Shown here one piece after another: positions 40,058 to 57,683 of a stretch of 64,000 bases of DNA (positions are counted from its first letter, which is position 1; each line of letters starts with the position of its first letter). A program made the position numbers and the translations under genes. A model generated the notes under the pieces. It saw only the letters and a list, made by a program, of their open reading frames with translations, was not told where the DNA came from and searched no databases. The DNA is taken from positions 5,364,365 to 5,428,364 of the forward strand of contig NZ_LR732544.1 of assembly GCF_902506575.1 (NCBI RefSeq), written 5' to 3'. Origin of the DNA: Streptomyces mexicanus (GTDB taxonomy: Bacteria > Actinomycetota > Actinomycetes > Streptomycetales > Streptomycetaceae).

Positions 40058-40427
40058 GCGCTGACTCCCCCTGGGGTGAACGGACTTGCCGGTGCCGCCG
40101 AGCATCCGCGCTGATCCCGGGGCGAGTTCGAGCGCGGTGACGGCGTGCGGAACGGCACCACACACTATGCGTTCGCTGTGGGGGACCGCCCACGGAACGG
40201 CAACGGTTCCGTCACGGCAAGGATCTTGAAGCAACCCCGGACGGATCTCGGAGCGACCCGTAACCCGGCGGGCGGTTCGCGGTTGTAGCGGTGGGGAGCC
40301 TGCTGTCCGCATCCGGGCCCCCGCGCCGAGGCGCGCGCCGCGCCGCCGGTGACCTGCGGCAGTGGGAGGCCGGACCCACGGGACAGGTGGACGCCGACGC
40401 CTCGCGACAGCGGGAGGACAGGAAGCC

Positions 40428-41901
40428 GTGACCGTGACGGAGTCTGTGCCCGAGGAGTGGGCGTCCGCGCAGCCGCCCGCCCTGCACGAGGGGATCCTGC
40501 GCCGCCAGTCGGCGCGCGAGTCCGCGGCGCGCACCTATGCGCGGGCCCTGCCCATCGTGCCGGTACGCGCCCGCGGGCTCACCGTCGAAGGCGCGGACGG
40601 CCGCCGCTACCTGGACTGCCTCTCCGGCGCCGGCACCCTCGCCCTCGGCCACAACCACCCCGTCGTCCTGGAGGCCATCCGCAAGGTCCTCGACTCGGGC
40701 GCGCCCCTGCACGCCCTGGACCTGGCCACGCCCGTCAAGGACGCCTTCGTCACCGAGCTGTTCCGCACCCTGCCGCCCGGACTCGCCGAGCGCGCCCGCG
40801 TGCAGTTCTGCGGCCCGGCCGGGACGGACGCGGTGGAGGCCGCGTTCACCCTCGTCCGGGCCGCCACCGGGCGCACCGGCATCGCGGCCTTCACCGGCGC
40901 CTACCACGGCATGACCGCCGGAGCGGCCGCCGCGTCCGGGCACGCCGTGGACGTAAGGGTCGCCCGGCTGCCCTATCCGCAGGACTACCGCTGCCCCTTC
41001 GGGGTCGGCGGCCCGCGCGGCGCCGCACTCGCCGCTCGCTGGACCGAGTCGGTCCTGGACGACCCCAAGTCGGGCGTGCCCCTGCCCGCCGGGATGATCC
41101 TCGAACCGGTGCAGGGCGAGGGCGGGGTGCTGCCCGCGCCGGACGACTGGCTGCGGCGCATGCGGCAGATCACCGCCGAGCGGTCCGTGCCGCTGATCGC
41201 CGACGAGATCCAGACCGGGGTGGGACGCACCGGCGCCTTCTGGGCGGTGCAGCACAGCGGCGTGGTCCCCGACGTGATGGTGCTGTCCAAGGCGATCGGG
41301 GGCAGCCTGCCGCTGGCCGTCGTCGTCTACCGCGACGACCTGGACGTCTGGGAACCGGGCGCCCACGCGGGGACCTTCCGCGGCAACCAGCTCGCCATGG
41401 CCGCCGGCACCGCCACGCTGGCCCACGTCCGGGAGAACCGGCTGGCCGAACGCGCCGCGCACCTGCTCCCGCATGCTCGCCCGGCTCCGCGCGCTGGCCG
41501 GGGAACAGCCCTGCATCGGCGAGGTGCGCGGCCGCGGTCTGATGATCGGCCTGGAACTGGTGGACCCGGAGGGCGACCCGGTCGCCACCGACGACCCGTG
41601 GGCGGGGGAGCATCCCGCGCCGCGCGGCGGCCCGCTGCCCGCCGCGCCCGCCCTTGCCGCCGCCGTGCAGCGGGAATGCCTGCGGCGGGGACTGATCGTC
41701 GAACTCGGCGGCCGCCACGCCTGCGTGGTACGGCTCCTGCCGCCGCTGACGATCAGCGACGAGCAGGCGGAGGCGGTGCTCGACCGGCTGGCCGACGCGA
41801 TCGACGCGGCGGCCCGCGGCCACACCGCGCCCGGCGGCAGCCGGCCCCGGCCGGGCGGAGGACACCGCCGTTCCCCGGCACACGGGCGGACGGCCGGGTA
41901 A
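40428..41901 (+). pseudogene. Diaminobutyrate–2-oxoglutarate-type aminotransferase, frameshifted
   Basis: Begins at GTG 40428 behind GGGAGGA (40,412–40,418). It encodes a class III PLP aminotransferase like those making 2,4-diaminobutyrate for siderophore or ectoine-type pathways: CLSGAGTLALGHNHP, CGPAGTDAVEAA, AYHGMTAGA, EPVQGEGG, DEIQTGVGRTG and the PLP Lys in VLSKAIGGS. The first frame fits to about 41,465 (ERAAHL). The family sequence then continues in another frame from RMLARLRALAGEQPCIGEVRGRGLMIGLEL to the stop at 41,901. One small indel (net –2 or +1) at about 41,465 explains this. It is a disrupted gene or a sequencing error. Downstream siderophore partners common in relatives are absent. 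Confidence 0.85.
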
Positions 41902-42193
41902 CCGCGCACGGCGGCGGCCGGCCGGTCCGACGCCCGTTGCGGACATCGCCCGGTGCGCCGGCCGCCGGGACTCCTCGCAGGCGTCTCGCCGCGCCGTCCG
42001 GGTCGGCCGTGCCGCCATGCCGGCCCCTCGGCGGTCACGAACGCACAGCCCCGCCCCCCGGAGGCCGCACAGCACCAGCGCATCGAGACCACCCAGCACC
42101 ACGACGAAGTGCCCCCGACCCCCACAGAGGTTTTTTTTGAGAGAGGTAAATCGATATTAATTTTTTTAACCTGTCCTGGGGTCAGGGTAATGT
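41902..42193. other. Gap with an AT-rich, foreign-looking scar
   Basis: From 41,902 to about 42,120 the sequence is normal high-GC and without a recognisable gene. From about 42,125 to 42,205 it is strikingly AT-rich, with T8 and T7 runs and a G run of about 10 at 42,207–42,218. Base use is unlike anything else in the window. On the minus strand one frame across it reads [20 protein letters not shown], protein-like but of low-GC type. It may be a small insertion, a deletion junction or assembly filler. Confidence 0.8.
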
Positions 42194-43108
42194 TTATGAG
42201 AGAAGCGGGGGGGGGGGCCGGGCGCCGCCGGCCACCGCGCCCACGCCGGCCGCCGCCGGGATGCCGACCTTGGCCGCCTTGCGGCCGGTGCGGTAGTCCC
42301 GCAGCCGCCAGTCCATCTCCCGGGCGTGGCGGCGGAGTTTGGCGTCGGGGTTGATGGCGTAGGGGTGGCCGACCAGCGACAGCATGGGGATGTCGTTGGC
42401 GGAGTCGCTGTAGGCGGCGCAGCGGGACAGGTCCAGGCCCTCGGCCGCCGCCAGCGCGCGCACCGCCTCCGCCTTGGCCGGGCCGTGCAGCGGTTCGCCG
42501 ACCAGGCGGCCGGTGTAGACGCCGTCGACCGACTCGGCCACCGTGCCCAGCGCGCCGGTCAGGCCGAGGCGGCGGGCGATGACCTGCGCGATCTCCACCG
42601 GCGCCGCGGTCACCAGCCACACCTTCTGGCCGGCGTCCAGGTGTGCCTGGGCCAGCGCGCGCGTGCCCGGCCAGATCCGCTCGGCCATGTACTCGTCGTA
42701 GATCTCCTCGCCGATCGACTTCAGCTCGGCGACCCGGTGGCCCTTGACGATCGACAGCGCGGAGTCGCGCGCGTCCTGCATGTGCTCGGGGTCCTCGACG
42801 CCGGCCAGCCGGAACCACGCCTGCTGCCAGGCGAAGCGGGCCAGGTCCCGGGTGTCGAAGAACTTCCGCTTGTACAGTCCGCGGCCGAAGTGGAACAGCG
42901 CGGCGCCCTGCATGACGGTGTTGTCCAGGTCGAAGAAGGCGGCGGCGCGGTCGTCGCCGCGCACCGGGAACTCCGCCTCCTCCTCGGGCGGGGCGGCCTG
43001 AGCCTCCTGCGAGGACTTGCGCGCGGCCTCCGCCGCGGCCTCGCCTGCCAACACGCTCCGCGCCGTGGCGGAGCGCCTACGGTGGGTGAGCCATCCGAGA
43101 GCGGCCAT
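42194..43108 (-). CDS. HAD-superfamily (PSPase-like, IB) hydrolase, abnormal 3' end
   Basis: About 304 aa from ATG 43108 ([12 protein letters not shown]). HAD motif I is [11 protein letters not shown] (Asp 60, 62), motif II LVTAAP, and the motif III/IV region [10 protein letters not shown]; the family resembles SerB-like HAD-IB phosphatases. After [16 protein letters not shown], where relatives usually end in a short hydrophobic/basic tail, the frame enters the poly-G/AT-rich scar and stops at TAA 42,194. The catalytic core is complete; the tail is probably replaced. It is divergent from the glutaredoxin gene. The substrate is unknown. Confidence 0.85.
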
Positions 43109-43255
43109 GGCGTGAGCATAGCCAGTCTGTTCGGGAGTTCCGTCCGTCGCACGGTTCGGACGCCGTGAACTCTGCGCAACCGTGTCGTTAAGTCGTTGAG
43201 CGGCGCCGGGCGAGGCCGTGGCCGCGGGTGCGCGCGCGGGGCGAGAATGGCCGGT

Positions 43256-43531
43256 ATGAGTCCCCTCTTCCGTCGCAGGCCGGCCGCGTCGCGGGACCGG
43301 CTCGTCACCCTTGTCCGCAAGCCCGGCTGCCATCTGTGCGACGACGCACAGGCGGTCGTGGAGAAGGTCTGCGCCGATCTCGGCGTGGCCTGGGAGCAGA
43401 AGGACATCACCGAGGACGCGCAGTTGCACGACCGGTACTGGGAGCAGATCCCGGTGGTGCTGATCGACGGCGAGCAGCACACGTTCTGGCGGGTCGACGA
43501 GGAGCGGCTGCGCAAGGCGCTGCGCGACTGA
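43256..43531 (+). CDS. Glutaredoxin-family protein
   Basis: 91 aa from ATG 43256 ([13 protein letters not shown]). Thioredoxin fold with the redox pair CHLC in [11 protein letters not shown], and the cis-Pro segment [11 protein letters not shown]. Actinobacterial members of this type may be mycoredoxin- or NrdH-like; the exact partner is unknown. It lies upstream of rex on the same strand, matching the theme of redox control, and is divergent from the HAD gene. In-frame ATGs a little upstream are possible. Confidence 0.88.
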
Positions 43532-43900
43532 CGCCGGGCGGCGCGCGGCCCGCCCGGGGGGGGGGGTCCGCGCACCGGCCGCGAGCCCCGACCGGGGCCC
43601 GGAGAGAACTGACCGACGGGTACAAACTGGCCGAAAGTGGCTTAGGATCGACGGTGGTCTGGTCTCGGGGGTGGGGATCGTAGAGGAGCGTGTGCGGTTT
43701 TGCCCCCAACAAGTAAGGAACGACGGTGCGGACGCGCCGGTTCCACGGGAACGCGTCAAAGATGCGTGAGCCCGGTCACGTTGGCCGGGCAAATCGGACA
43801 CCATCTTTGTGCACGCGTTCACAAAGACATAGCCTGCTGTCGACGGGGCGGTCTGGGGACGTACGACCGCCCGCAGCCCCGCTCTACCCGCAGGAGCACC
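43532..43900 (+). promoter_or_regulatory. rex: rex–hem leader and promoter region
   Basis: A 369-bp gap before rex. It holds a G-run at about 43,556–43,566, a TAGGAT-type –10 near 43,644, and the Rex operator at 43,807–43,824. A GTG ORF at 43,726 has a good Shine–Dalgarno sequence but crosses the operator and has no family I recognise, so I do not call it. Confidence 0.6.
43807..43824. promoter_or_regulatory. Rex operator (ROP) upstream of rex
   Basis: TTGTGCACGCGTTCACAA is an 18-bp near-perfect inverted repeat, one base off the known consensus TTGTGAACGCGTTCACAA. It lies 77 bp before the rex start, showing autoregulation of rex–hemACD by the NADH/NAD+ ratio. Confidence 0.93.
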
Positions 43901-44671
43901 GTGGCAACTGGCCGAACTCACCGACCGGCGACCCGTAGCCGAGGGATTCCCGAGGCCACCGTCGCCAGGCTTCCGCTGTACCTCCGGGCGCTGACCGCAC
44001 TGTCGGAGCGCTCGGTCCCCACGGTCTCCTCCGAGGAGCTGGCAGCCGCCGCTGGGGTCAACTCCGCGAAGCTGCGCAAGGACTTCTCCTACCTCGGCTC
44101 CTACGGGACCCGCGGGGTGGGCTACGACGTCGAGTATCTCGTGTACCAGATCTCCCGCGAACTGGGGCTCACCCAGGACTGGCCGGTTGTGATCGTCGGT
44201 ATCGGCAACCTCGGCGCCGCCCTCGCCAACTACGGCGGGTTCGCCTCCCGCGGCTTCCGGGTCGCCGCGCTCATCGACGCCGACCCCGCGCTCACCGGCA
44301 AGGCCGTCGCCGGGATCCCGGTGCAGCACACCGACGACCTGGAGAAGATCATCCAGGACAACGGCGTCTCGATCGGCGTGATCGCGACCCCCGCGGGCGC
44401 CGCCCAGCAGGTCTGCGACCGGCTCGTCGCCGCCGGCGTCACCTCGATCCTGAACTTCGCGCCGACCGTGCTGAACGTCCCGGACGGCGTGGACGTGCGC
44501 AAGGTCGACCTCTCCATCGAGCTGCAGATCCTCGCCTTCCACGAGCAGCGCAAGGCCGGCGAGGAGGCCGCCGCCGCCGCGGGGCGGCCCGCCGCCGCGG
44601 CCGCCGCCGTGCGCAAGCAGTCCGCCGACCAGGGGCCCGACGGGGACGTTCCCGCCGTGATGCCGGCATGA
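43901..44671 (+). CDS. rex: Redox-sensing transcriptional repressor Rex
   Basis: A 256-aa NADH-sensing repressor. The N-terminal winged helix has [18 protein letters not shown] and [20 protein letters not shown]. The C-terminal Rossmann domain has [15 protein letters not shown], and the swapped C-terminal helix follows. It starts at GTG 43901 ([13 protein letters not shown]). Rex binds the ROP upstream and releases DNA when NADH is high. The stop overlaps the hemA ATG (ATGA), so rex and hemACD form one operon, as described in S. coelicolor. Confidence 0.97.
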
Positions 44672-46455
44672 GTCTCCTCGTCGTCGGACTGAGCCACCGC
44701 AGCGCCCCGGTCAGCGTCCTGGAGCGCGCCTCGCTGAGCGTGGACGCCCAGGTCAAGCTGGTCCAGGACACCGTCGCCGCCGAGCCGGCCGCCGAGGCCG
44801 CGGTGCTGGCCACCTGCAACCGCATCGAGCTGTACGCCGACGTGGACAAGTTCCACGCCGGTGTCTCCGAGTTGTCCACGCTGCTCGCCCAGCACAGCGG
44901 GGTCGGCCTGGAGGAACTCACCCCCTACCTCTACGTGCACTACGAGGACCGGGCCGTCCACCACCTGTTCTCGGTGGCCTGCGGCCTGGACTCGATGGTC
45001 GTCGGCGAGGGCCAGATCCTCGGCCAGATCAAGGACTCCCTGGCCCGCGCCCAGGAGCTGCACACCGCCGGACGCCTGCTCAACGACCTGTTCCAGCAGG
45101 CCCTGCGGGTGGGCAAGCGCGCCCACTCCGAGACCGGCATCGACCGCGCCGGGCAGTCCCTCGTCACCTTCGGCCTGGAGCAGCTGGCCGCGGGCGGCGC
45201 CGTCACCGACTGGGCGCGCGGCAAGAAGGCCCTGGTCATCGGCGCCGGTTCGATGTCGTCGCTGGCCGCGGCCACGCTCGCGCGGGCCGGGGTCGCCGAG
45301 ATCGTGATCGCCAACCGCACCCAGGAGCGGGCCGAGCGCCTCGCGCAGATCCTCACCGAGGGCGACGACACGGCCGTACGCGCCCGCGCCGTGGCGATGA
45401 GTGCCGTGCCGGACGAACTGACACGTGCCGACATCGCCGTCTCCTGCACCGGAGCGACCGGACTGGTGCTGACCGCCGAGACGATCGCCGCCGCCGTCGA
45501 GGGCCGCACCGGCGCGCCCGCCGCGGAGGTCGCCGACGACCGCACCGGCGCGGAAGCGCGCCGTACGGCGGCGAAGCCGGCCGGGAAGGCGGAGGCCCGC
45601 GAGACGCCGCTGCCGCCCACCACCGTGGGCGCCGAGGACGGCTGCCCGCTCGACCTGGCCGCCGTGGAGCCCGGCTTCTCCCTGCTGGGCGAGTCCGCGG
45701 TCGCCGGCATCGACGCGGCCACCCTGGAGCAGCACGGCACCTGGGTCGATGGGGGCACCTCCCTGCTGGAGCGACGGCGGAAGCCCGGGGGAGGGACGGT
45801 GGACCGCCGCGAGCACGCCGAGCGGGCCGTGGAGGCCGACGCCGAGCTGATCGGCGCGCTGGCCGCGACCGTCGCCACCGCCGGCCGCATCCCCGAGCTG
45901 CGCAAGCCCGAGCCGGTCGCCGTGGCCCCGCGCCCCGAGCCGGTGCTGTTCGTGCTGGACCTGGCCATGCCGCGGGACGTCGACGCGGCCGTGCACCGGC
46001 TGGCCGGGGCGCGCCTGGTGGACATCGAGTCCCTCGCGGAGGCCTCCGCGGACGCGCCGATGGCCGCCGACGTCGACCAGGTCCGCCGTATCGTGGCCGA
46101 CGAGGTCGCGGACTTCGCGGCGGCCCAGCGGGCGGCGCACATCACGCCGACCGTGGTCGCCCTGCGCACCATGGCCGCCGACGTCGTGGCCGGCGAGATC
46201 GCCCGGCTGGAGGGACGGTTGCCCGGCCTGGACGACAAGCACCGGGCGGAGATCACCCAGACCGTGCGACGCGTCGTGGACAAGCTGCTGCACGCGCCGA
46301 CCGTCCGGGTCAAGCAGCTCGCGGCCGAGCCCGGCGGCGCCGGGTACGCGGACGCGCTGCGCACCCTGTTCGACCTCGACCCGGAGACGGTGGCCTCCGT
46401 CTCGCAGGCCGACGACGACTCCCAGAAGAACGGCAGGAACCGAGGGCCGGCATGA
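44668..46455 (+). CDS. hemA: Glutamyl-tRNA reductase HemA
   Basis: A 595-aa enzyme for the first committed step of tetrapyrrole synthesis by the C5 pathway. The catalytic Cys50 is in LATCNRIE, the NADPH fold is at [13 protein letters not shown], and dimer helices are at the C-terminus. Like other streptomycete HemA it has a long extra segment (about 45,490–45,860) between the NADPH domain and the last helices. Part of that insert (45,750–45,796) is a small palindromic element in frame. ATG 44668 overlaps the rex stop; hemC overlaps the hemA stop. Confidence 0.97.
45750..45796. repeat. Small palindromic element inside hemA coding sequence
   Basis: TGGGGGCACCTCCCTGC…CCCGGGGGAGGGA, with CACCTCCC and GGGGGAGG as complementary ends. 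It is translated as [15 protein letters not shown], inside the poorly conserved insert of HemA. It resembles the segment in recX at 12,647–12,689. Confidence 0.55.
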
Positions 46456-47426
46456 GTGAGAACCCACTGAAGCTGGGGACCAGGCGCAGCAAGCTCGCCA
46501 TGGCCCAGTCCGGGCAGGTCGCGGACGCTGTGAGCCGGGTGACCGGACGGCCCGTCGAACTCGTCGAGATCACCACCTACGGCGACACCTCCCGCGAGCA
46601 CCTGGCGCAGATCGGCGGCACCGGCGTGTTCGTCGCGGCGCTGCGGGAGGCGTTGCTGCGGGGCGAGGTGGACTTCGCGGTTCATTCGCTCAAGGACCTG
46701 CCCACCACGCAGCCCGACGAGCTGGTCCTGGCCGCGATACCCCGCCGCGAGGACCCGCGGGACGTGCTGGTCGCGCGGGACGGGCTGAAGATCACCGACC
46801 TGGCCGCGTCCTCCCCGACGGGCGTCGCGCGCATAGGCACCGGCGCGCCGCGGCGGATGGCCCAGCTGAACGCGTACGCGCGCGCCCACGGCCTGGAGAT
46901 CGAGACGGTCCCGATCCGGGGCAACGTCGACACCCGCATCGGATACGTCCGCAGCGGGGAGCTGGACGCGGTCGTGCTGGCCGCGGCCGGACTGAACCGG
47001 ATCGGCCGCAGCGACGAGGTGACCGACGTCCTGTCGGTCGACACGGTTTTGCCCGCCCCCGGCCAGGGGGCCCTGGCGATCGAGTGTGCCGCGGGGAACG
47101 CGGAGCTGATCGCAGCGCTCGCCGAGCTCGACGACCCGTTCACGCGGGCCGCCGTGACCGCCGAGCGGTCACTGCTCGCCGCCCTGGAGGCCGGTTGCAG
47201 CGCCCCTGTGGGCGCGTTGGCCGACCTGCTGGCCGACGGGCAGATTGTCAAGGAAATGCGCCTGCGCGGCGTCGTCGGCACCCCCGACGGCACCACGCTG
47301 GTGCAGCTGTCCACCACCGGTCCCGTGCCCCAGACGCACGATGCGGCGATGGCGTTCGGTCGCGAACTCGCCACCGAGATGCTCGCCCAGGGCGCGGCCG
47401 GTCTGATGGGGGAGCGAGCACATTGA
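46452..47426 (+). CDS. hemC: Hydroxymethylbilane synthase (porphobilinogen deaminase) HemC
   Basis: 324 aa; polymerises four porphobilinogens. The cofactor-binding Cys is residue 249 in LEAGCSAPVGAL. Other motifs are LGTRRSKLAMAQSG at the start, HSLKDLPT, RGNVDTRI and PAPGQGALAIE. It overlaps hemA (ATGA at 46,452–46,455) and the next gene's TTG start. Confidence 0.97.
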   Translation: MSENPLKLGTRRSKLAMAQSGQVADAVSRVTGRPVELVEITTYGDTSREHLAQIGGTGVFVAALREALLRGEVDFAVHSLKDLPTTQPDELVLAAIPRREDPRDVLVARDGLKITDLAASSPTGVARIGTGAPRRMAQLNAYARAHGLEIETVPIRGNVDTRIGYVRSGELDAVVLAAAGLNRIGRSDEVTDVLSVDTVLPAPGQGALAIECAAGNAELIAALAELDDPFTRAAVTAERSLLAALEAGCSAPVGALADLLADGQIVKEMRLRGVVGTPDGTTLVQLSTTGPVPQTHDAAMAFGRELATEMLAQGAAGLMGERAH

Positions 47427-49132
47427 GCCCCACCACCCTTTCCGCCGGCCTGGAACACGGGCACGTCACCTTCCTCGGTGCCGGACCCGGAGATCCGGGA
47501 CTGCTGACACTGCGCGCCGTGGAGGCGCTGGCGAACGCCGACGTCCTGGTCGCCGAGCACGAGGTGCTCGACGTCGTCCGCACGCACGCCCGGGAGGGCG
47601 TCGCCGTCGTGCACACGGATCCGGATCCCTCGTCGGATCCCGTTCCGGGCACGGGCACGCCTCAGCTGACGGTCGTTGACGGCACGTCAGCAACCGTTGC
47701 CGCTCCCGCTGTGCGGGATGCCGCACATCTTGTCATGGAGGCCGCGCGCGGCGGCAGGCGGGTCGTGCGTGCGGTGTCCGGGGACCCCGGGCTGGACACG
47801 GACGCCGCCGCGGAGATGCTCGCCTGCGCCGCCGCGGGCGTGCCCTTCGAGGTCGTCCCGGGCGTCGCGACCGCCGTCGGCGTGCCCGCGTACGCCGGTG
47901 TGCCGCTGCGGGACGCCGAGGGCGCCGACGTCCGGTTCGTCGACGCCCGGACGGCCTCGGACCGCTGCTGGACGGAGGTCGGCGCCTCGGACGGCACGGT
48001 CGTCGTGTCGACGACGCTCGACTCGGTGGCCGCGGCGGCCGGCGAGCTGGTCTCCGCGGGCCGCAAGCCGGACACCCCGATGACGGTCACGATCGCCGGT
48101 ACGACCACCCGCCAGCGCACCTGGACCGCCACGCTCGGCACGGTCGCGCAGACCCTGAAGCAGGCCAAGGTCCTGCCGTCCCCGGACGGCCACCGCCCGG
48201 TGATAGCCGTGGTCGGCGAGCGCAGCGCCGCGGCGCGGCGCGAGCAGCTGTCGTGGTTCGAGTCCAAGCCGCTGTTCGGCTGGAAGGTCCTCGTGCCGCG
48301 CACCAAGGAGCAGGCCGCGTCGCTCTCCGACCAGCTGCGCTCCTACGGTGCCGTGCCGCACGAGGTGCCCACGATCGCCGTGGAGCCGCCGCGCACTCCG
48401 CAGCAGATGGAGCGCGCGGTCAAGGGCCTGGTGACGGGCCGCTACGAGTGGATCGCGTTCACGTCGGTCAACGCGGTCAAGGCCGTCCGCGAGAAGTTCG
48501 AGGAGTACGGCCTGGACGCCCGCGCGTTCGCGGGCATCAAGGTCGCCGCGGTCGGCGAGCAGACCGCCAAGGCCCTGATCGCCTTCGGCGTGAAGCCGGA
48601 CCTGGTTCCGAGCGGCGAGCAGTCGGCCGCGGGCCTGCTGGAGGACTGGCCGCCCTACGACCCGGTCTTCGACCCGATCGACCGCGTGTTCCTGCCGCGC
48701 GCCGACATCGCCACCGAGACCCTGGTGGCGGGCCTGATCGAGCTCGGCTGGGAGGTCGACGACGTCACGGCCTACCGCACGGTCCGTGCCTCGCCGCCCC
48801 CGGCGGAGACCCGCGAGGCGATCAAGGGCGGCGGCTTCGACGCGGTCCTGTTCACCTCCTCCTCCACGGTGCGCAACCTGGTGGGCATCGCGGGCAAGCC
48901 GCACAACGTCACGGTGATCGCCTGCATCGGCCCGGCGACGGCGAAGACGGCCGAGGAGCACGGCCTGCGGGTGGACGTGATGTCCCCCGAGCCGTCGGTC
49001 CACAAGCTGGCCGAGGCCCTCGCCGACTTCGGCGCCCGCCGCCGCGCGGCGGCCCTGGAGGCCGGCGAGCCGGTGACCCGCCCGAGCGAACGACGGGCGG
49101 GGGCGCGGAGGCGGCGGTCTACGTCGACCTGA
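47423..49132 (+). CDS. hemD: Fused uroporphyrinogen-III C-methyltransferase / uroporphyrinogen-III synthase
   Basis: 569 aa from TTG 47423, which overlaps the hemC stop. The N-terminal half is a SUMT-type methyltransferase (VTFLGAGPGDPGLLTLRAVEAL near the start, SGDPGL, VPGVATAVGVPAYAGVPL). The C-terminal half is the HemD synthase (LVPRTKEQAASLSDQL, FTSVNAVKAVREKF, LFTSSSTVRNLVG). This combines uro'gen-III formation with the first step to sirohaem/B12 in one protein, a normal actinobacterial fusion. The terminator at 49,154–49,185 closes the operon. Confidence 0.95.
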   Translation: MSPTTLSAGLEHGHVTFLGAGPGDPGLLTLRAVEALANADVLVAEHEVLDVVRTHAREGVAVVHTDPDPSSDPVPGTGTPQLTVVDGTSATVAAPAVRDAAHLVMEAARGGRRVVRAVSGDPGLDTDAAAEMLACAAAGVPFEVVPGVATAVGVPAYAGVPLRDAEGADVRFVDARTASDRCWTEVGASDGTVVVSTTLDSVAAAAGELVSAGRKPDTPMTVTIAGTTTRQRTWTATLGTVAQTLKQAKVLPSPDGHRPVIAVVGERSAAARREQLSWFESKPLFGWKVLVPRTKEQAASLSDQLRSYGAVPHEVPTIAVEPPRTPQQMERAVKGLVTGRYEWIAFTSVNAVKAVREKFEEYGLDARAFAGIKVAAVGEQTAKALIAFGVKPDLVPSGEQSAAGLLEDWPPYDPVFDPIDRVFLPRADIATETLVAGLIELGWEVDDVTAYRTVRASPPPAETREAIKGGGFDAVLFTSSSTVRNLVGIAGKPHNVTVIACIGPATAKTAEEHGLRVDVMSPEPSVHKLAEALADFGARRRAAALEAGEPVTRPSERRAGARRRRSTST

Positions 49133-49153
49133 GGCCGGTGAGGCCGAACGGGA

Positions 49154-49185
49154 AGGCGGGGCGTGCTCCACAGCACGCCCCGCCT
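49154..49185 (+). terminator. Strong hairpin terminator closing rex–hemACD
   Basis: A perfect 14-bp stem AGGCGGGGCGTGCT / AGCACGCCCCGCCT with loop CCAC, 22 bp after the hemD stop. Confidence 0.9.
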
Positions 49186-49242
49186 GCGCGCGTCTCCGGG
49201 ACACCGCGGACGCAGCCCCATGGGTGGCGTTGGTTCCGGCTC

Positions 49243-49569
49243 CTATGCAGCCGACGAACGGGGATGTGAGGCAGGCGAGGATGCCGAGAGTGGAGCCGCG
49301 TCGAGGCCGCCTTCCCCGGCTTCGATCCACTCACGTAGGCGCTCCATTGCAGCTGCAGGAGCAGGGAACCTCGTCGGCGCCCATCCCTTACGGGTACCAG
49401 ATGACATTGTCTTCCGAGCCGTTCTTTTCGGCGGTTGGCCCTGGAACCTGTTATGGACGTCCCGGCCCGCATCACGGACGTGGCCCGCGTCGGCCTTCAG
49501 ATCCGCACAGTCGTTCTCCAGTTGCTCCAGATTCCCCGTGTGCTGGGGTATTGCCTCCGGATCCAGCAC
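49243..49569 (-). pseudogene. Remnant of a WXG-like/polymorphic-toxin N-terminal protein
   Basis: 108 codons from ATG 49569. The first ~44 residues (MLDPEAIPQHTGNLEQLENDCADLKADAGHVRDAG…) resemble the N-terminal helical domain of large Streptomyces WXG/ESX-like secreted toxin-type proteins. After HNRFQGQ (about 49,438) the expected helical continuation is lost and the frame runs through unrelated sequence. I read it as a degraded gene start. No further toxin or immunity gene is visible in the 49,133–49,715 gap. Confidence 0.5.
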
Positions 49570-49715
49570 GCGTCTCTGCCCCCTGCCCCGTTACCTCGGC
49601 AGACGTCGTTGATTCGATCACCTGTACACGAGGGCTGCGGACGCCATCTGCTTCCGGCCAAAGACGGCACGGGCAGAGACGGTGGCAGCTTGGGTGGCGT
49701 TCTGGGGCTGACCGG

Positions 49716-49910
49716 TCAGTGGCCGGCTGCGTACGGCAGGAAGGCCGACCAGGTGGTGGGCGTCAGGGTGAGGCGGGGGCCGGTGGGGTTCTTGGAGTCG
49801 CGGACGAGGATGTGGTCCGGGATCGTGGCGACTTCCACGCAGGACGGGCCGTCGTCTGTGCTGTAGCTGCTCTTTATCCACTCCAGCTCGGAGCTGCGCT
49901 TGAGGCTCAT
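49716..49910 (-). CDS. DUF397 domain protein
   Basis: A 64-aa DUF397 protein: WIKSSYSTDDGPSCVEVA near the start and VRDSKNPTGPRLTLTPTTWSAFL at the end. Such proteins are encoded next to Scr1/WhiJ-like XRE regulators throughout Streptomyces and are proposed to act with them. The ATG at 49910 overlaps the XRE gene's stop by 4 bp. Confidence 0.93.
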   Translation of the reverse strand: MSLKRSSELEWIKSSYSTDDGPSCVEVATIPDHILVRDSKNPTGPRLTLTPTTWSAFLPYAAGH

Positions 49911-50740
49911 GTTTCTCCCCGCAGTTGCTCGATGAAGGTCAAGGACTCCCGTGGCGTGAGAGCCTGCGCCCGGATGATTCCATAGCGCATGTCGAGGACG
50001 GTCGTCTCCTTCGGGTCGCAGAAGACACGGCTGATGAGCGGTGCTTCGCTGAGCCCCACTGTCGTCCCATCCTTGAGCTTGAGCAATCGGAAAAGGCCGC
50101 TGAGCCCCGAGTTCTCCTCGCTGCTGAGGGGAAGCACCTGCAAGTCGATGTTGGGTAACTGGGCTACCTCCAAGAGCCGTTCGAGCTGCGCCCGCATCAC
50201 CATCCTGCCTCCGATGGCCCGCCGCAGCGTCGCCTCGCACAGTACAAAGCTGAACAGAGGTCCGGCTGTCGCGCTCTTGATGATCTCCTGGCGGGCCAGC
50301 CTCGCAGCAAGCTGACGCTCCAACTCCTCCTCCGTGAACGGAGGTCGACGCGAACTGAACACCGCCCGCGCGTAATCCTCGGTCTGGAGCAGGCCGTCAA
50401 CAACCGAGTTGTTGTACGAGCAGATCTGTACGGCCTCGACCTCCAGGCGGCGCACGTCCCGCACCTTCTTCGGATACCGAGCCTCGGCCAGGTCCTTCTT
50501 CATCGCGGCGATCTTCCCGCCCGCCCCCAGCACCTCGTCCGCCGCGTCCAGATACTCCGGCCGGGGAATCCGCCGCCCACGTTCCACCGAGGAGACCAGC
50601 TCCTCCCCGTACCCGATGGCCGCCCCGAACTCCGCCTGGGTGAGGCCGGCCGCCTCCCGCCACAGCTTCAGCTGGCGGGCGACCGCTCGCACCACTGCCC
50701 GGGCTTCCTCGTCCTCCGCGTTCACGTCGTCGTCGCTCAT
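49907..50740 (-). CDS. XRE-family regulator (Scr1/WhiJ-like, DUF5753)
   Basis: 277 aa. The N-terminal helix-turn-helix (LKLWREAAGLTQAEFGAAIGYGEELVSSVERGRRIP) is followed by a DUF5753-type ligand-like domain (QICSYNNSVVDGLLQTEDYARAVF, LLEVAQLPNIDLQVLPL). This pairs with the DUF397 gene, to which it is coupled, and is divergent from an anti-sigma-like ATPase gene at 50,900. Such triads are linked to development and antibiotic control in Streptomyces. ATG 50740 gives MSDDDVNAEDEEAR. Confidence 0.93.
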   Translation of the reverse strand: MSDDDVNAEDEEARAVVRAVARQLKLWREAAGLTQAEFGAAIGYGEELVSSVERGRRIPRPEYLDAADEVLGAGGKIAAMKKDLAEARYPKKVRDVRRLEVEAVQICSYNNSVVDGLLQTEDYARAVFSSRRPPFTEEELERQLAARLARQEIIKSATAGPLFSFVLCEATLRRAIGGRMVMRAQLERLLEVAQLPNIDLQVLPLSSEENSGLSGLFRLLKLKDGTTVGLSEAPLISRVFCDPKETTVLDMRYGIIRAQALTPRESLTFIEQLRGET

Positions 50741-50899
50741 GTCCGCGCCCTCCCGCCGCGCCCTTTTCTGTCCAACCCCCGCGGCCTGTAACCGGTCACC
50801 CCGTACAGCCCGGACGTATCCGGACGCCTCGCGGACATCCACCGACCGCACGGGGCACCGCCCTTCACAGCGTAGACACACCCGGACACGCTGAGTGAC

Positions 50900-51367
50900 G
50901 TGAATCAGCAAAGTCAGCAACCAGTCGCAGAGCAGCCCCGGCTGCACCAGTTCGCCGTGCCCCTGTCCGCCACCCGCCGTGGCGCCCGGCTCGCCCGGCT
51001 GCTCGCGGTCGAGCAACTGCACGCGTGGGGGCTGCCGTTGGACCCCGCCCGGCTGATCGTCGCCGAGCTGGCCTCGAACGCCGTTCTCCATGGCCGGGTT
51101 CCCGGGCGGAGTTTCCGGCTCGCTCTCGCCGTGACCGTCCACGGCGTCCTCCGGATCGAGGTGACGGACACGCGCGGTGACGTACTTCCGAGTCGGGAGG
51201 GCGGTGGTGCCGGACCCGCGGAATCGGGATACGGGCTGTTGCTGGTTGACGAGTTGGCCGATCGGTGGGGCGTGCGCACCGGCCCGGTTCCCTGCAAGAC
51301 GGTGTGGGCAGAGCTCGACCCGGTCTGCCCATCAGCGCACGTCACACCGGAGCCGGGCTGTGTGTGA
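50900..51367 (+). CDS. ATP-binding (RsbW/SpoIIAB-like HATPase_c_2) regulatory protein
   Basis: 155 aa with a GHKL ATPase fold: ARLIVAELASNAVLHG (N-box) and ESGYGLLLVDELADRWG (G2-type). This is the short anti-sigma-factor kinase-like protein usually encoded beside DUF397/XRE pairs. It starts at GTG 50900 and is divergent from the XRE gene with ~160 bp between. Confidence 0.9.
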   Translation: MNQQSQQPVAEQPRLHQFAVPLSATRRGARLARLLAVEQLHAWGLPLDPARLIVAELASNAVLHGRVPGRSFRLALAVTVHGVLRIEVTDTRGDVLPSREGGGAGPAESGYGLLLVDELADRWGVRTGPVPCKTVWAELDPVCPSAHVTPEPGCV

Positions 51368-51649
51368 GGCGGCGTTCCGGCCGCCGGGGGTGCGGGCGGT
51401 AAAAAGACCAAAGAACCCGGGGAAATAACCAACCAACCACACGAAACCCGGCATCCGTCACTCGGGCGGGTGAATGTGGCCGGTCTGGCTGGCGTGGCGG
51501 CGGTTCGGGCGTGCAGGCTCGCCCCGAGGCGGTCGAGGCATATGCACCCGCCCCAGCGCATTCACCACCCCACACATGCATCGGCCCCCGCCGGGACGGC
51601 AATCCCAGTGCGAGGGCCTGACCATCGAGGAAGAGAAGAGGTCTTCCCC

Positions 51650-52666
51650 ATGGCTGAGAAGAAGCCTAACGCTGCCCTGCGCTCGATTCAGGGTGTTCCG
51701 CGATCCACCACCCCCTCCGGTGTCATCCACGTACGCACGTACCAGTCCGGTCAGTACGTCGTCGTCGGCAATCACCTCGCCCAGCACCGCGAGCTGTCCC
51801 TGACCGCGATCGGGCTGGCCACCCACATTCTGTCGGTGCCCGAGGGAACCCCGGTCGACATCCGCAGCCTCGCCGAGCGCTTCCCCGAGGGGCGGGAGCG
51901 CATCGCGTCCGCGCTGCGCGAGCTGGAGGCGCACGGCTACCTGCGGCGGGTCCGGGAGCACACGGACTCCGGCCGCCTGGTCACCCGTACGTACGCCCAC
52001 CACGCCCCGGACGCAGCAGCCCCGGCAGTCGCGCCTCTTCGTGTGGCGGGGCGGCCCGCGGCCGGTCGCCGTACCGTCGAGCGTCAGCCCGCAGTACGCG
52101 CGGACGTACCGGCCGCCCCTGAGGAGGACGATCAAGCCCCTCCCCGGCAGGCACCCGAGCCGGAACCGTCCGCGCCTGCGGTGAGCGGAGCCCCGGATCC
52201 CCGGCAAGCGCTCGCGCCCGAACCGGCCGTGCCCGAGGTGCGCGCCACCCCGCATCCCCGGCACGACCGGGCCGCCGCCCTCCTCGCCGGTCTGCGCCGC
52301 ACGGACGACCGCCTCATCCTCTCCCGCCGAGACGTGGACCGGCTCGCGCCGGCCGTCACCGCGTGGCTCGACATCGGGGTCTCGGCCGCCGTCGTCCACC
52401 ACGCCCTGACCGACGGCCTTCCCGCTGACCTGAGGAACCCGGCGAAGCTGATCGCCTACCGGCTCGATGCACTGCTGCCGGTGCCCCTGCCCGCTCGCGC
52501 CGCGCCGGCACCGATGACCACAGGGGGTCCGCGAGCGGTTCGCCGTCCCGATCCCTTCCAGACCTGCGACGGCTGCGAGCGCGCCTTCCGCGCCCCGCAG
52601 CCCGGGCGCTGCCGTGAGTGCCGCGGGAACAGGGCGGTGCCGGGCGGGAGCGTGTGTGCGGCGTGA
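51650..52666 (+). CDS. Winged helix-turn-helix domain protein (replication-initiator-like)
   Basis: 338 aa from ATG 51650, behind GAAGAGG at 51,635–51,641. The N-terminal ~110 residues form a winged helix (LAQHRELSLTAIGLATHILSVP … ELEAHGYLRRV) typical of streptomycete DNA-binding proteins often found on plasmids and integrative elements. A Pro/Ala-rich linker, a helical segment, and a C-terminal CDGCERAF…CREC zinc-ribbon-like pair follow. The 282-bp leader from 51,368 has no gene that I can support. Function unknown. Confidence 0.82.
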   Translation: MAEKKPNAALRSIQGVPRSTTPSGVIHVRTYQSGQYVVVGNHLAQHRELSLTAIGLATHILSVPEGTPVDIRSLAERFPEGRERIASALRELEAHGYLRRVREHTDSGRLVTRTYAHHAPDAAAPAVAPLRVAGRPAAGRRTVERQPAVRADVPAAPEEDDQAPPRQAPEPEPSAPAVSGAPDPRQALAPEPAVPEVRATPHPRHDRAAALLAGLRRTDDRLILSRRDVDRLAPAVTAWLDIGVSAAVVHHALTDGLPADLRNPAKLIAYRLDALLPVPLPARAAPAPMTTGGPRAVRRPDPFQTCDGCERAFRAPQPGRCRECRGNRAVPGGSVCAA

Positions 52667-52725
52667 GGCGGTGTTCGTGGGGCGTCGGGCAACCGACTGT
52701 CAGACCCTGCGCCTACCGTGGCGGT

Positions 52726-52926
52726 ATGGACATGGATGATCCGCAGGACGTAGGGGCGGCGTTCTGGGCGCAGGTGCTCGGGGTCACGATCCGCGAGGAG
52801 CCGCCCCCGCCGGACTCGCCGCTCGGCCGGGTGCAGGCGTTCACCGCGCGGTACGGGCAGGACGCGCTGCGGCCCGAGCACATACGGGCGGCCATCGAGG
52901 GGCGGCCGCTCCTGCCGTCCGAGTGA
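52726..52926 (+). CDS. Small hypothetical protein
   Basis: 66 aa from ATG 52726 (MDMDDPQDVGAAFW). Acidic and helical, with no recognised family. It lies downstream of the winged-helix gene on the same strand with a 59-bp gap, so it may be co-transcribed. The composition fits real coding sequence, but the call is modest. Confidence 0.6.
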   Translation: MDMDDPQDVGAAFWAQVLGVTIREEPPPPDSPLGRVQAFTARYGQDALRPEHIRAAIEGRPLLPSE

Positions 52927-52983
52927 GCCCGGGACGCGACGGACCCCCGGGCCTCCTCACCCCTGGGACATGCCAGACAGTCC

Positions 52984-53442
52984 CTAGTGGTGCCAGGCGT
53001 GGCCGCCCGTGTTGTGGATGACGCGCTGGAGCACCTTGAGGGTGGTCAGGTACTCCTCGTCGGAGATGCCGGCGTGGCGCTGCGCCCACAGCTCGTCCTG
53101 GAGGGCGGCCGCCTTGTCGAAGAAGGCCCTGCCCTCAGGGGTCAGGTTCAGACGGCCCGAGGGGTCCTCGGTGATCCAGCCCCGGTCGATCGTCCGGTCG
53201 ATCTCCGACTCCATCGCGTCGTGGCCGGTGTCGAGGTAGTTCTCCAGCAGGCCGCTGACCTCGGCGCGGGTCCTGGGGGAGTCCGCGCGGGCGACCTGGG
53301 CGAGCACCCACCACTGGGGCTGGGTGGTGCCGAGGTCCGCGAGGGCGGCGCGGGTGCGGGTGACGACGGCCTTGTAGGCCGCCCAGCTCCAGTAGCCGAT
53401 GGGCTGCCGGAGGAGTTCGTCGTCGCTGTGCGAGTACTCCAT
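52984..53442 (-). CDS. MarR-family transcriptional regulator
   Basis: 152 aa. Winged helix visible in [26 protein letters not shown] and [29 protein letters not shown] 53442 gives [13 protein letters not shown]. It is divergent from hemB with 150 bp between. A 20-bp imperfect palindrome overlapping its own promoter (53,479–53,507) suggests autoregulation. The ligand is unknown. Confidence 0.88.
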
Positions 53443-53478
53443 GGCCTTGCCTTCCGTCTCCGGGTTCGTGATGTCGAC

Positions 53479-53507
53479 CGTAGAACCTCGACCAAGCTTG
53501 AGGTCAA
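53479..53507 (-). promoter_or_regulatory. marR-type gene promoter with overlapping palindrome
   Basis: On the minus strand TTGACC (53,507–53,502) and TCTACG (53,484–53,479) are 17 bp apart. Between and over them lies ACCTCAAGCTTGGTCGAGGT (53,485–53,504), an imperfect inverted repeat with GACCTC/GAGGT ends. The placement suits an autorepressor site. Confidence 0.6.
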
Positions 53508-53592
53508 CCGCCTTGGGCGTCGACTCGGTGCCGTCTCCGCGCCGACTCCGCGTCGGCAAAGGCACCGGGTGGGCGGGCGTAGCGTAGAGAGC

Positions 53593-54585
53593 ATGACGAA
53601 GTACGGATCCTTCCCCGGTACGCGTCCTCGCCGGCTGCGCACCACCCCCGTCATGCGCCGCATGGTCGCCGAGACCCGGCTGCACCCGGCGGACCTGATC
53701 CTGCCCGCGTTCGTACGGGAGGGCGTCAGCGAGCCCGTGCCGATCGAGGCGATGCCCGGGGTCGTGCAGCACACGCGCGACAGCCTGAAGAAGGCCGCCG
53801 CCGAGGCGGTGGAGGCCGGGATCTCCGGGATCATGCTCTTCGGCGTGCCGGAGGAGTCCAAGAAGGACGCCCTCGGGACGGCAGGCACCGACCCGGAGGG
53901 GATCCTGCAGGTCGCGCTGCGCGACGTGCGTGCCGAGGTCGGCGACGACCTGCTCGTCATGTCCGACCTGTGCCTGGACGAGTTCACCGACCACGGGCAC
54001 TGCGGCGTGCTGGACGCCGAAGGGCGCGTCGACAACGACGCCACCTTGGAGCGTTACGCCGAGATGGCCCAGGTCCAGGCCGACGCCGGGGCGCACATCG
54101 TGGGCCCCAGCGGCATGATGGACGGGCAGATCGGCGTGATCCGCGACGCCCTGGACCAGATCGGGCGGGAGGACGTCGCCATCCTCGCCTACACCGCCAA
54201 GTACTCGTCCGCCTTCTACGGCCCGTTCCGCGAGGCCGTCGGCTCCTCGCTGAAGGGCGACCGCAAGACCTACCAGCAGGATCCCGCCAATCTGCGCGAG
54301 TCGCTGCGCGAACTGGCCCTCGACCTCGAAGAGGGCGCCGACATGGTGATGGTCAAGCCGGCCGGCCCCTACCTCGACATCCTCGCCCGGGTCGCCGACG
54401 CCGTGGACGTGCCCGTCGCCGCGTACCAGATCTCCGGCGAGTACTCCATGATCGAGGCCGCCGCCGAGAAGGGCTGGGTCGACCGCGACCGGGCGATCCT
54501 GGAGACCCTGACCGGCATCAAGCGGGCCGGGGCGCGCAACATCCTCACCTACTGGGCCGTCGAGGTGGCGCAGAAGCTGCGCTGA
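53593..54585 (+). CDS. hemB: Delta-aminolevulinic acid dehydratase (porphobilinogen synthase) HemB
   Basis: 330 aa; condenses two 5-aminolevulinate to porphobilinogen between HemA/HemL and HemC. Active-site motifs are [30 protein letters not shown], and VKPAGPYLD with the Schiff-base Lys. ATG 53593 gives [16 protein letters not shown]. It is separated from hemACD by ~4.5 kb of regulator genes, an arrangement to compare with relatives. Its 3' end overlaps a small convergent lipoprotein gene by 37 bp. Confidence 0.97.
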
Positions 54586-54839
54586 ACACGCCGGACGGTG
54601 TCCGGCTCCGCGCCCCGCACCGTGTCCGTGCGGGCGGGGCAGGGGTGCCCCGCGGACCGCGACACCGAGGACGGGCCCTCGTCCCGCAGGCCCTGGCCGT
54701 CGTAGCAGCCGGTCAGGGCCGTGCACGCGGTGAGCAGGAACGCCGTCGCCGCCAGCAGTCGGGTGCGGGCGCGGGGACGGCCCTGGGCCCGGGCGCGGGT
54801 GCGCGCGCGGGCACGGGCGTCGGCGGAGTGCGCGGGCAT
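54549..54839 (-). CDS. Small putative lipoprotein
   Basis: 96 aa from ATG 54839. A very Arg-rich N-terminus, then [18 protein letters not shown], where ALTGC is a lipobox. The short remainder is Ser/Arg-rich and looks non-conserved, especially where it overlaps the end of hemB. It follows the DUF4232 lipoprotein on the same strand with a 29-bp gap, which favours a real gene, but the coding end is uncertain. Confidence 0.55.
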
Positions 54840-54868
54840 GACGTTCCCCTCCGATCCGGGCGGCGGGC

Positions 54869-55702
54869 TCAGTGTTCGAGGGCCTGGCCCATCTCCGGCA
54901 GCCAGTACGTCACCGTCAGGCTGTCGTCGACGTAGACGCCCTGCGCGGGCAGCGCCACCGTGGCGATCGAGCCGTCCGTGAAGGGCACCGTCAAGGAGTG
55001 CACCGTGTGGCCGTGTTCGGCGCTGCCGTCGCCGGCCGACAGCAGGACACCCGCGTACGCCGACTGGCCCGGCTCCATCCCGGTCAGCGCCTGCGGCTTG
55101 GTGTCCTCGGCCACCGGCGGCACCGACTGCGCCTCCCCGAAGCGCGCCGCCGGGTACGGGGGCAGCATGCACGTCTTCGACCCGGTGTTGGTCGCGGTCA
55201 GCAGCAGGTGGTTGATCGGGCGGGACACCAGCGTGGCCTTGATCCGCGTGGTGCGCGCGCTGCACGTGCCCGGCATCGAGGAATCCCCGGCGCCGGCCCG
55301 GGAGCCGGTGCTGCCGCCCGTGGTCTTGGTGCCGCCGGTGCGGGCGGAGCCGGCGGTGCCGACGGTGCCGGCGGTTCCGCTGCCCGTGCTGCTCTTTCCG
55401 TTGCCGCTCGTGCCTTCGGCGGCGCCGGTGCCGCCGCTCCCGCCGGTCCCGTCCGTTCCGCTCGAAGCGTTCTTCCCGCCCTCGTTCCCGGTGCCCGCCG
55501 AGCCCTGCCCGGACGAAGCCGAGCCCTGCCCGGACGAAGCGGTGGACGGGTGGTCGCCCTGCGCGGTGGCCGTCGTGGCGGAGCCGGCGCTCGCGCTGTC
55601 GGTTCCGTTCTCGCAGGCCGTCAGGGACAGGGCCGCGAGGGAGAGCGCGGTGGCGGCGAAGAGGCGGGTGCGGGTGAGACGTCGTGCGGTGCGTACGGAC
55701 AT
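54869..55702 (-). CDS. DUF4232 lipoprotein
   Basis: 277 aa. A twin-Arg/basic start (MSVRTARRLTRTRL), then SLAALSLTACENG with a lipobox Cys. A ~110-residue Ser/Gly/Thr-rich linker contains an SSGQGSA repeat (55,490–55,540). The C-terminal domain (ATNTGSKTCMLPPYPAARF and VTYWLPEMGQAL) is DUF4232, a beta-rich extracellular domain of Streptomyces lipoproteins. It is divergent from the HTH membrane protein at 55,933. Function unknown. Confidence 0.88.
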   Translation of the reverse strand: MSVRTARRLTRTRLFAATALSLAALSLTACENGTDSASAGSATTATAQGDHPSTASSGQGSASSGQGSAGTGNEGGKNASSGTDGTGGSGGTGAAEGTSGNGKSSTGSGTAGTVGTAGSARTGGTKTTGGSTGSRAGAGDSSMPGTCSARTTRIKATLVSRPINHLLLTATNTGSKTCMLPPYPAARFGEAQSVPPVAEDTKPQALTGMEPGQSAYAGVLLSAGDGSAEHGHTVHSLTVPFTDGSIATVALPAQGVYVDDSLTVTYWLPEMGQALEH

Positions 55703-55932
55703 GGGAATTCCCCCGGTCGTGTGAATGAGTGTGTGCGGCGAGGTGCCGGCAGGTGCCGTTCGGCTGGTTGCCCTCGGTGGCGTCCTCGCTGATCCACAGC
55801 TTGTGGGAGGATCCGTCCCAGCGGCCAGTAGCGCCGGGACATGCGGGACGCTGGAACGCTGGAACGGGCTCCGACCTGGGGAAACCATGTCCGCCTGGAA
55901 CGCGGGTGTGAGATGGGAGAGAGGGAGAAACG

Positions 55933-57630
55933 GTGGCGGGGGAGGACTTCGCGGAGCTGCTGCGGGAGCTGAAGGAGCGCTCCGGCCTCAGTTACGGAGC
56001 GCTCGGCAAGCGACTGCACATGAGCGCGTCCACGGTGCACCGGTACGTCAGCGGGGACGTCGTACCGACGGACTACGCCCCGGTCGAGCGGCTGGCCCGC
56101 ATCTGCCGGGCCACGCCGGAGGAACTGCTGGAGCTGCATCGCCGCTGGGTCCGCGCCGACGCGCTGCGAGGGGTCAAGGCGCAGGCGGCCGGGGAGGCAC
56201 CCGCCCGGGCGGAGGCCACCGAGGCGGCCTGCGGGGCCGTCGACGAGGCCCGTACCGAGGCGGGCGACGGGGCCCGTACCGAGGCCCCTGCCGAGGCGGG
56301 CGGCGCGGCCGGTGCCGAGGCCGGCACCGAGGGGGCCGGTCGGGCGGCCACCGGGTCGCGCGAGGGGTCGGTCCCCGAGTCGTCGGCCGGACCACAGGCC
56401 GGACCGTCGGTCGGATCCCCGGCTGTACCACCTGTCGAACCGTCGGCCGTACCACCGGCTGTACCCCTGGTAGAGCCGTCGACTGTGCCACGGGTCGAGC
56501 CGTCACCGGTCGAGCCGTCGTCTGTCAGCTCGTCATCTGCCGGACCGTCAGGTGCCGGTTCGTCACCTGCCGAACCGTCACCGGTGGGGCGTTCGGCCGG
56601 ATCCCCCGCCCACCCGGCCGCCCCGCACAGCCCGCAACCCGAGGCCGTACCCGCCGTCGGACCGCGCCTCGCGCCGCGGGACCGGAAGAAGCGGCCCGCC
56701 GCGCTGCTCGTCAGCGCCGGGATCGTGGCCGTGGCCGCGGCGACGGCGCTCGTGGTGAATCTGGTGCCGGGCGGTTCCGGCGGGGCGGACCGGGTCCGCG
56801 GTGTCGGTGAGGCCGTGTCCGCCCCCGCGTCCACCGCGCACACGGGCGGGACGGCCGGTGCGTCGGGGAGCGCGTCGCCGTCGCCCTCGGCGTCCCGGTC
56901 GGTGCAGGGCAGCGCCACGCCGAGCGCCACCGCGTCCGGCGGCAAGAGCCGGGCGGGGACGGGCGCGCGGGGGGCGGACAGGGCCTCCGGCGGTACGGGA
57001 ACGGGCGACGCCGGTGGCGCGGACGCGGCCGGGCCGGTGCCGGTCACGGTCGCCACCACGCCGTACTACTGGCACCTGCCGTGCGAGCAGAGCTTCCTGG
57101 TCGACCGCAGTCCGCAGAACGTTCCGCCGCCGCCCCCGCAGCAGGACGCGGTGGGCTGGGCCACCCCGCTGGGCGCGGTCGCCGCCGACCACCAGACGGT
57201 GGTGTTGACCGTGCAGGGGACCGGTGCCCGGACGGTCGTGCTGCAGGCGCTGCACGTGCGCGTGGTGAGCAGCGGCGCACCGCTGACCTGGAACAAGTAC
57301 GCGATGGGCGACGGCTGCGGCGGCGGCGTGGACACCAAGTCCTTCGACGTCTCGCTCGACCTCGGCAACCCTCTGGCCCAGCCGATCGCCGGGCAACGTC
57401 CCTTCCCGTACAAGGTCAGCGAGTCCGACCCCGAGGTCTTCTACGTCAACGCCCACACCAGTGGGCACGACGTCCGCTGGTACCTGGAGCTGGACTGGTC
57501 CAGCGGCGAGCGGCACGGCACCGTGCGCGTCGACGACCACGGCAGGCCCTTCCGCACCAGCGGTTCCGGGAAGCCGTACTACGTCCAGCCGCTGGGCCGC
57601 CACGAGTGGCAGCGGGTGGACGACTACTGA
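55933..57630 (+). CDS. Membrane-anchored helix-turn-helix protein with extracellular domain
   Basis: 565 aa from GTG 55933, behind GGGAG at about 55,923. N-terminal XRE-type HTH (KERSGLSYGALGKRLHMSASTVHRYV), a ~170-residue Ala/Glu/Pro/Ser linker, one membrane helix (AALLVSAGIVAVAAATALVV, about residues 256–275), a second disordered linker, then a ~180-residue extracellular beta-type domain with two Cys. This is a one-component design that could carry a cell-surface signal to DNA. The two linkers vary in composition. A similar layout is widespread in Streptomyces; the ligand is unknown. Confidence 0.86.
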   Translation: MAGEDFAELLRELKERSGLSYGALGKRLHMSASTVHRYVSGDVVPTDYAPVERLARICRATPEELLELHRRWVRADALRGVKAQAAGEAPARAEATEAACGAVDEARTEAGDGARTEAPAEAGGAAGAEAGTEGAGRAATGSREGSVPESSAGPQAGPSVGSPAVPPVEPSAVPPAVPLVEPSTVPRVEPSPVEPSSVSSSSAGPSGAGSSPAEPSPVGRSAGSPAHPAAPHSPQPEAVPAVGPRLAPRDRKKRPAALLVSAGIVAVAAATALVVNLVPGGSGGADRVRGVGEAVSAPASTAHTGGTAGASGSASPSPSASRSVQGSATPSATASGGKSRAGTGARGADRASGGTGTGDAGGADAAGPVPVTVATTPYYWHLPCEQSFLVDRSPQNVPPPPPQQDAVGWATPLGAVAADHQTVVLTVQGTGARTVVLQALHVRVVSSGAPLTWNKYAMGDGCGGGVDTKSFDVSLDLGNPLAQPIAGQRPFPYKVSESDPEVFYVNAHTSGHDVRWYLELDWSSGERHGTVRVDDHGRPFRTSGSGKPYYVQPLGRHEWQRVDDY

Positions 57631-57683
57631 CATCGAAAGGCCGAGGGGGCCGCCGCACGGTTCGCCCGCCTCGCCCGGTCGGC

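Follow-up and report, generated by a model that had tools for sequence, protein, structure and literature searches.

A degraded Nextera adapter very probably marks a false junction of two chromosome parts in a draft Streptomyces mexicanus genome

The window analyzed here is a stretch of 64,000 nucleotides of Streptomyces mexicanus (NZ_LR732544.1, positions 5,364,365 to 5,428,364 of the forward strand) and belongs to a 7.16-Mb scaffold (C17) of a draft genome that totals 7.93 Mb in 159 contigs. Between a diaminobutyrate aminotransferase gene and a HAD-IB hydrolase gene, a short AT-rich segment was found, which is termed the scar (Table 1). The GC content was 32% over positions 42131 to 42204 and 37.6% in the 85 bases from 42120, compared with 49.4% for the next-lowest separate 85-base stretch and 73.4% for the window as a whole; the scar was the sole location in the window with 85 bases below 49% GC. 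No N gap was present at the scar itself. The AT-rich segment described by the first-pass annotation, including its runs of eight and seven T residues, is real and was correctly placed (T7 at 42161 to 42167); the accompanying run of about ten G residues was also present but proved to be eleven residues long. A second G11 run was observed at 43556 to 43566, between two genes of the displaced block described below, where the intergenic sequence of relatives differs.

The aminotransferase had been described as broken and was indeed read in two frames, the products of which matched positions 18 to 361 and 367 to 467 of a single 469-position diaminobutyrate transaminase model. The frame change was located at 41465 to 41475 (about 41.47 kb), with DNA likeness to the relative G009 spanning it, and may be either a base error or a real mutation. 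Further 3′, the likeness to G009, G049, G067, and G077 ended at 41815 to 41842. On the other side of the scar, the likeness of the HAD gene to the loci of 19 relatives ended beside the G run; therefore, its normal tail is replaced, as had been suggested from the sequence. The best 80 named relatives of this HAD gene were all from Streptomyces.

Table 1. Features at and around the scar, in window coordinates. Assignments from 42131 to 42205 follow the adapter reading favored in the text.
Feature	Position	Strand	Remarks
Diaminobutyrate aminotransferase gene, two frames	40362..41901	+	Contig ends at scar
Stretch 3′ of aminotransferase, without match in four relatives compared	41843..42130	.	Contig end, quality uncertain
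T8, poly-A tail after P7 of the read-through, reverse-complemented	42131..42138	-	Poly-T-then-P7 order also in L155, L141 (reverse strand), L184, and L139
P7 flow-cell sequence, degraded; weakest-matching part	42139..42161	-	Global alignment to the exact L155 adapter copy; limits approximate
i7 index, degraded (AGGCAGAA in read direction), T7 included	42162..42172	-	Global alignment; index intact in L155 and L129
Nextera arm, degraded (read-through CCGAGCCCACGAGAC)	42173..42187	-	Alignment; arm printed in PMC3906532 (excerpt)
Tn5/Nextera mosaic end, degraded	42188..42205	-	Alignment; genome holds 58 more copies (at most 3 mismatches)
G11, edge of HAD-side contig	42207..42217	.	G/C runs adjoin N gaps elsewhere in the scaffold
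HAD-IB hydrolase gene, tail absent in assembly	42218..43108	-	TIGR01490; likeness to relatives ends 42210-42225
In-window portion of misplaced 51.6-kb block	42218..64000	.	Found between bldN and hemL in relatives G009 and G049; full extent reaches window-coordinate 93.83 kb (C17 about 5458196)

Gene order was compared with that of relatives. The bldN region and the HAD gene were found within 834 bases of each other in all 91 genus genomes that had both among the matches listed (left out of this count were seven genomes without a listed bldN row, as well as G001 and G050, which had no HAD row among the matches listed). Similarly, the bldN region lay beside the HAD gene in 76 of 80 named loci, the four exceptions being two short loci (L206 and L232), one with 941 N (L201), and one with no clear assignment (L226). 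Here, the bldN gene (TIGR02952; C17:4239683-4240948) was found 1.17 Mb from the HAD gene and adjoining hemL (TIGR00713). Two complete relatives, G009 and G049, carry bldN, HAD, and, after further genes, hemL in this order, with 42.9 and 61.6 kb, respectively, from the HAD tail to hemL; the matching block here is 51.6 kb long (42.22 kb to window-coordinate 93.83 kb). Relative to both genomes, its orientation is retained and its content otherwise collinear. The aminotransferase region of G009 and G049 is followed by the segment that here begins only at about 94.05 kb, beyond the window, and that encodes IucA/IucC, FhuF, and GNAT domains, in agreement with the initial remark that relatives carry siderophore genes at this site. 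Thus placed, the block separates the diaminobutyrate aminotransferase from its IucA/IucC siderophore gene. The IucA/IucC match starts at profile position 94 of 239, and this gene therefore appears to lack its start, at the far end of the block. The scar junction thus breaks a gene order that is conserved in the relatives by all three comparisons (91 of 91 genomes, 76 of 80 loci, and the block order of the two complete relatives), and the separation of bldN from HAD together with the block order in G009 and G049 indicates that one block stands in the wrong place in the scaffold.

The scar was found to have the makeup of a sequencing adapter. Read 5′ to 3′, it presents poly-T, P7, an i7 index, the Nextera arm, and the Tn5 mosaic end, all degraded, so that its reverse complement follows the order of a Nextera read-through (mosaic end, arm, i7 index, P7, and poly-A). 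The index is one we take to be N703, and the read-through tail beyond the index is present in exact form at L155. The read-through sequences as far as the index are printed in the excerpted text of PMC3906532. In reverse complement, the adapter scored 48.5 against the scar, whereas the highest-scoring of 2000 dinucleotide shuffles gave 39.0. With the poly-A left out and the exact adapter copy of the same genome (L155) as the reference, the global score was 29.5, a value that 0 of 50,000 dinucleotide shuffles reached (highest, 24.0); the local score without poly-A was reached by 8 of 50,000. A P7-side scan of about 148 kb of the scaffold (11,770 comparisons per adapter) returned the scar as the top site at 48.5, followed by 40.5, and the best score of the reversed-adapter control was 36.0. 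Four next-best P7-side places (36 to 40.5, one of them at 17.6 kb of the window) were taken as chance because the poly-A tail was missing from the match. The scar alignment holds 47 identities in 75 columns, 16 of which are gap columns, and is thus strongly degraded; its ungapped identity (34 of 66) does not decide the matter alone, as another place in the window reached 33 and the best of 5000 shuffles 36.

Six other adapters were compared with the scar in either direction and scored at most 26.5, against 48.5 for the P7 side of Nextera; some were weakly raised and none came near the latter value. The P5 side of Nextera, which has the mosaic end in common with the P7 side, was rejected as the source at 26.5 (reached by 13 of 2000 shuffles), and in the comparison that gave 29.5 for the P7 side it scored 17.5, which also exceeded its own 3000 shuffles. 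The PacBio (25.0; 11 of 2000), ONT (24.5; 10 of 2000), TruSeq (at most 23.5; 60 of 2000), and Ion Torrent (20.5; 297 of 2000) adapters were far below 48.5. The possibility that the scar consists of random low-quality base calls of no adapter origin draws on the many errors in the adapter match and on the noise that follows poly-T/poly-A tails at other scaffold sites such as L146 and L124. However, it is made highly improbable by the global alignment, which beats 50,000 of 50,000 shuffles with its parts correctly ordered and oriented, and by the demonstrable presence of the same adapter in this assembly.

The first-pass annotation had also offered foreign DNA captured at a deletion junction, and had read one minus-strand frame as resembling the protein of a low-GC organism. 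The low GC and the short open frame are in keeping with such an origin. The peptide was recovered, within a mechanical minus-strand ORF of 868 aa, but it represents translated adapter and poly-T, and its reading as a protein of that kind is not supported. At the sensitivities used, blastn of the scar segment detected no match among plasmids, phages, or E. coli genomes, and an exact 22-mer taken from it was absent from genome contigs (genome_contigs) and viral contigs (viral_contigs). A repeat of the genome itself was likewise rejected, with only two 17-base matches (E-value 4.97). As the parts of the scar stand in adapter order and orientation, a foreign capture has hardly any likelihood; the event is mainly a misplaced block of 51.6 kb, though the start of IucA/IucC also seems to be missing.

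Adapter sequence was found at many other places in the assembly. L155, on the same scaffold, is an exact copy from P7 to the mosaic end with poly-T before it, and 13 other hand-picked places gave scores between 132 and 32 when compared with the adapter in the same way, against 36 for the scar, so that the degraded copies form a graded series. The 58 mosaic ends detected at up to three mismatches (reversed control, 0) included one exact copy, none with one mismatch, 41 with two, and 16 with three; this spread looks like what may have been left over after near-exact copies were trimmed. When 30 of the 58 were examined, the P5-side arm accompanied 22 and the P7-side arm 5 (at most four mismatches), and 14 lay within 300 bases of an N gap. 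P7 occurred seven times in the genome, three of them exact. The N runs observed in the scaffold were 101 long, and some were edged by degenerate G/C runs. A phiX174 piece of 399 bases at 97.7% identity was also detected in the main scaffold (L136:303-701, C17:1217302-1217700); it adjoins a poly-A run and adapter-like sequence. Separately, L095 (C17 near 547277-547420) displays long alternating C/G runs with no nearby N gap and is probably collapsed low-quality sequence.

The displacement has two further junctions on the scaffold. At the vacated site between bldN and hemL, a G10 run is followed by a P5-side adapter-like remnant (L029:13092-13135, C17:4241091-4241134), which scored 29.0 against the P5-side read-through (reached by 27 of 20,000 shuffles) and 41.0 against a degraded copy at C17:4232352 (reached by 0 of 20,000). 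The value of 29.0 was not outstanding in the 148-kb scan, where scores of up to 32.0 occurred elsewhere outside a copy scoring 65.0 and the reversed control gave 31.0; the case for this remnant is therefore made by where it lies and by its resemblance to the C17:4232352 copy, and as a putative adapter remnant it is weaker than the scar. At the third junction (window-coordinates 93.83 to 94.06 kb, C17 about 5458196-5458420), the adapter scan detected no adapter above chance. The C17:4232352 copy itself (to 4232447; L029:4353-4448) is a degraded P5-side adapter with A15, scoring 65.0, in a region where gene order agrees with G009; thus, adapter sequence occurs also where order is intact.

This last observation is of use to a biological account of the order break, in which the 51.6-kb rex/hemA-side block was truly transposed from beside bldN into the siderophore cluster with its orientation kept, and the adapter only marks breakpoints that were hard to sequence. 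The retained orientation and otherwise collinear content of the block relative to G009 and G049, as well as the lack of a declared N gap at the scar, also suit this account. It is opposed by the finding that bldN and HAD were apart in none of the 91 genus genomes in which both were listed, by the need for three breaks, with adapter-like sequence at two of them, and by the apparent absence of the IucA/IucC start from the far end, as would be seen at a gap. A transposition is thus doubtful in the extreme, if a little less so than random base calls or foreign DNA.

We consider it very probable (about 0.95) that the scar is an error-ridden, untrimmed Illumina Nextera read-through adapter at a false junction of two Streptomyces chromosome parts, and hence an artefact rather than bacterial DNA. 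The other option of the first-pass annotation, an assembly junction made up of low-quality or contaminant reads, agrees with this outcome. The adapter match, the exact and degraded copies in the scaffold, the break in gene order, and the second adapter-like remnant directly support it. As to how it arose, coverage may have failed between bldN and HAD, and the contig ends would have run into adapter-bearing reads too error-rich for trimming, with the degraded copies being what the trimmer left behind. The contig that starts with HAD would have kept the adapter, in reverse complement, at its low-quality end. We infer that a later joining step used such ends and placed the HAD contig after the diaminobutyrate aminotransferase, which would have left the 51.6-kb block 1.17 Mb from bldN and inside the siderophore cluster.

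Parts of this picture have known parallels. The mosaic end and arm of the Illumina NexteraXT read-through adapters, as given in the excerpted text of PMC3906532, have the same sequence and order as in the scar; in contrast, the copy here is degraded and lies inside a finished scaffold, where it joins distant segments. Sequencing reagents in deposited genomes are described for PhiX in microbial isolate genomes (PMC4511556), similar to the phiX174 piece noted above, although the survey, in its excerpted text, flagged mostly-phiX scaffolds, whereas phiX and adapter are here embedded in a scaffold of 7.16 Mb. Large-scale order errors in draft assemblies are the subject of NxRepair (PMC4458127, excerpt); what sets the present junction apart is its adapter sequence. 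In the literature searched, no paper dealing with degraded adapters at misjoins was recognised, which is no proof of absence.

Other genomes of the genus were scanned for the same sequences. At least one mosaic end (at most three mismatches) was found in 19 of 100 other genomes, but single matches mean little because the reversed control also matched in 24 of 101 genomes, with one or two matches each. Four or more mosaic ends were found in 11 of the 100 (G012, G099, G077, G017, G032, G073, G076, G081, G056, G008, and G043), with 4 to 162 in each, and the reversed control never exceeded two per genome. P7 was detected in 4 of the 100, the control in none. The single contig of G012 displayed 162 mosaic-end-like sequences, and among 12 that were examined, two touch N runs and four have an arm (at most four mismatches), so that an adapter origin in G012 is likely, though not proven. 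Degraded adapters that escape near-exact screens thus seem to persist in deposited genomes, where they can give rise to spurious genes and spurious disruptions of gene order, and it is adapter remnants in public genomes that are the practical lesson. For S. mexicanus, the tailless HAD gene, the separation of the siderophore cluster from its aminotransferase, and the placement of bldN beside hemL are suspect in this assembly, and no interpretation should be built on the HAD tail, on the "low-GC" peptide, or on the neighborhood of aminotransferase and HAD.
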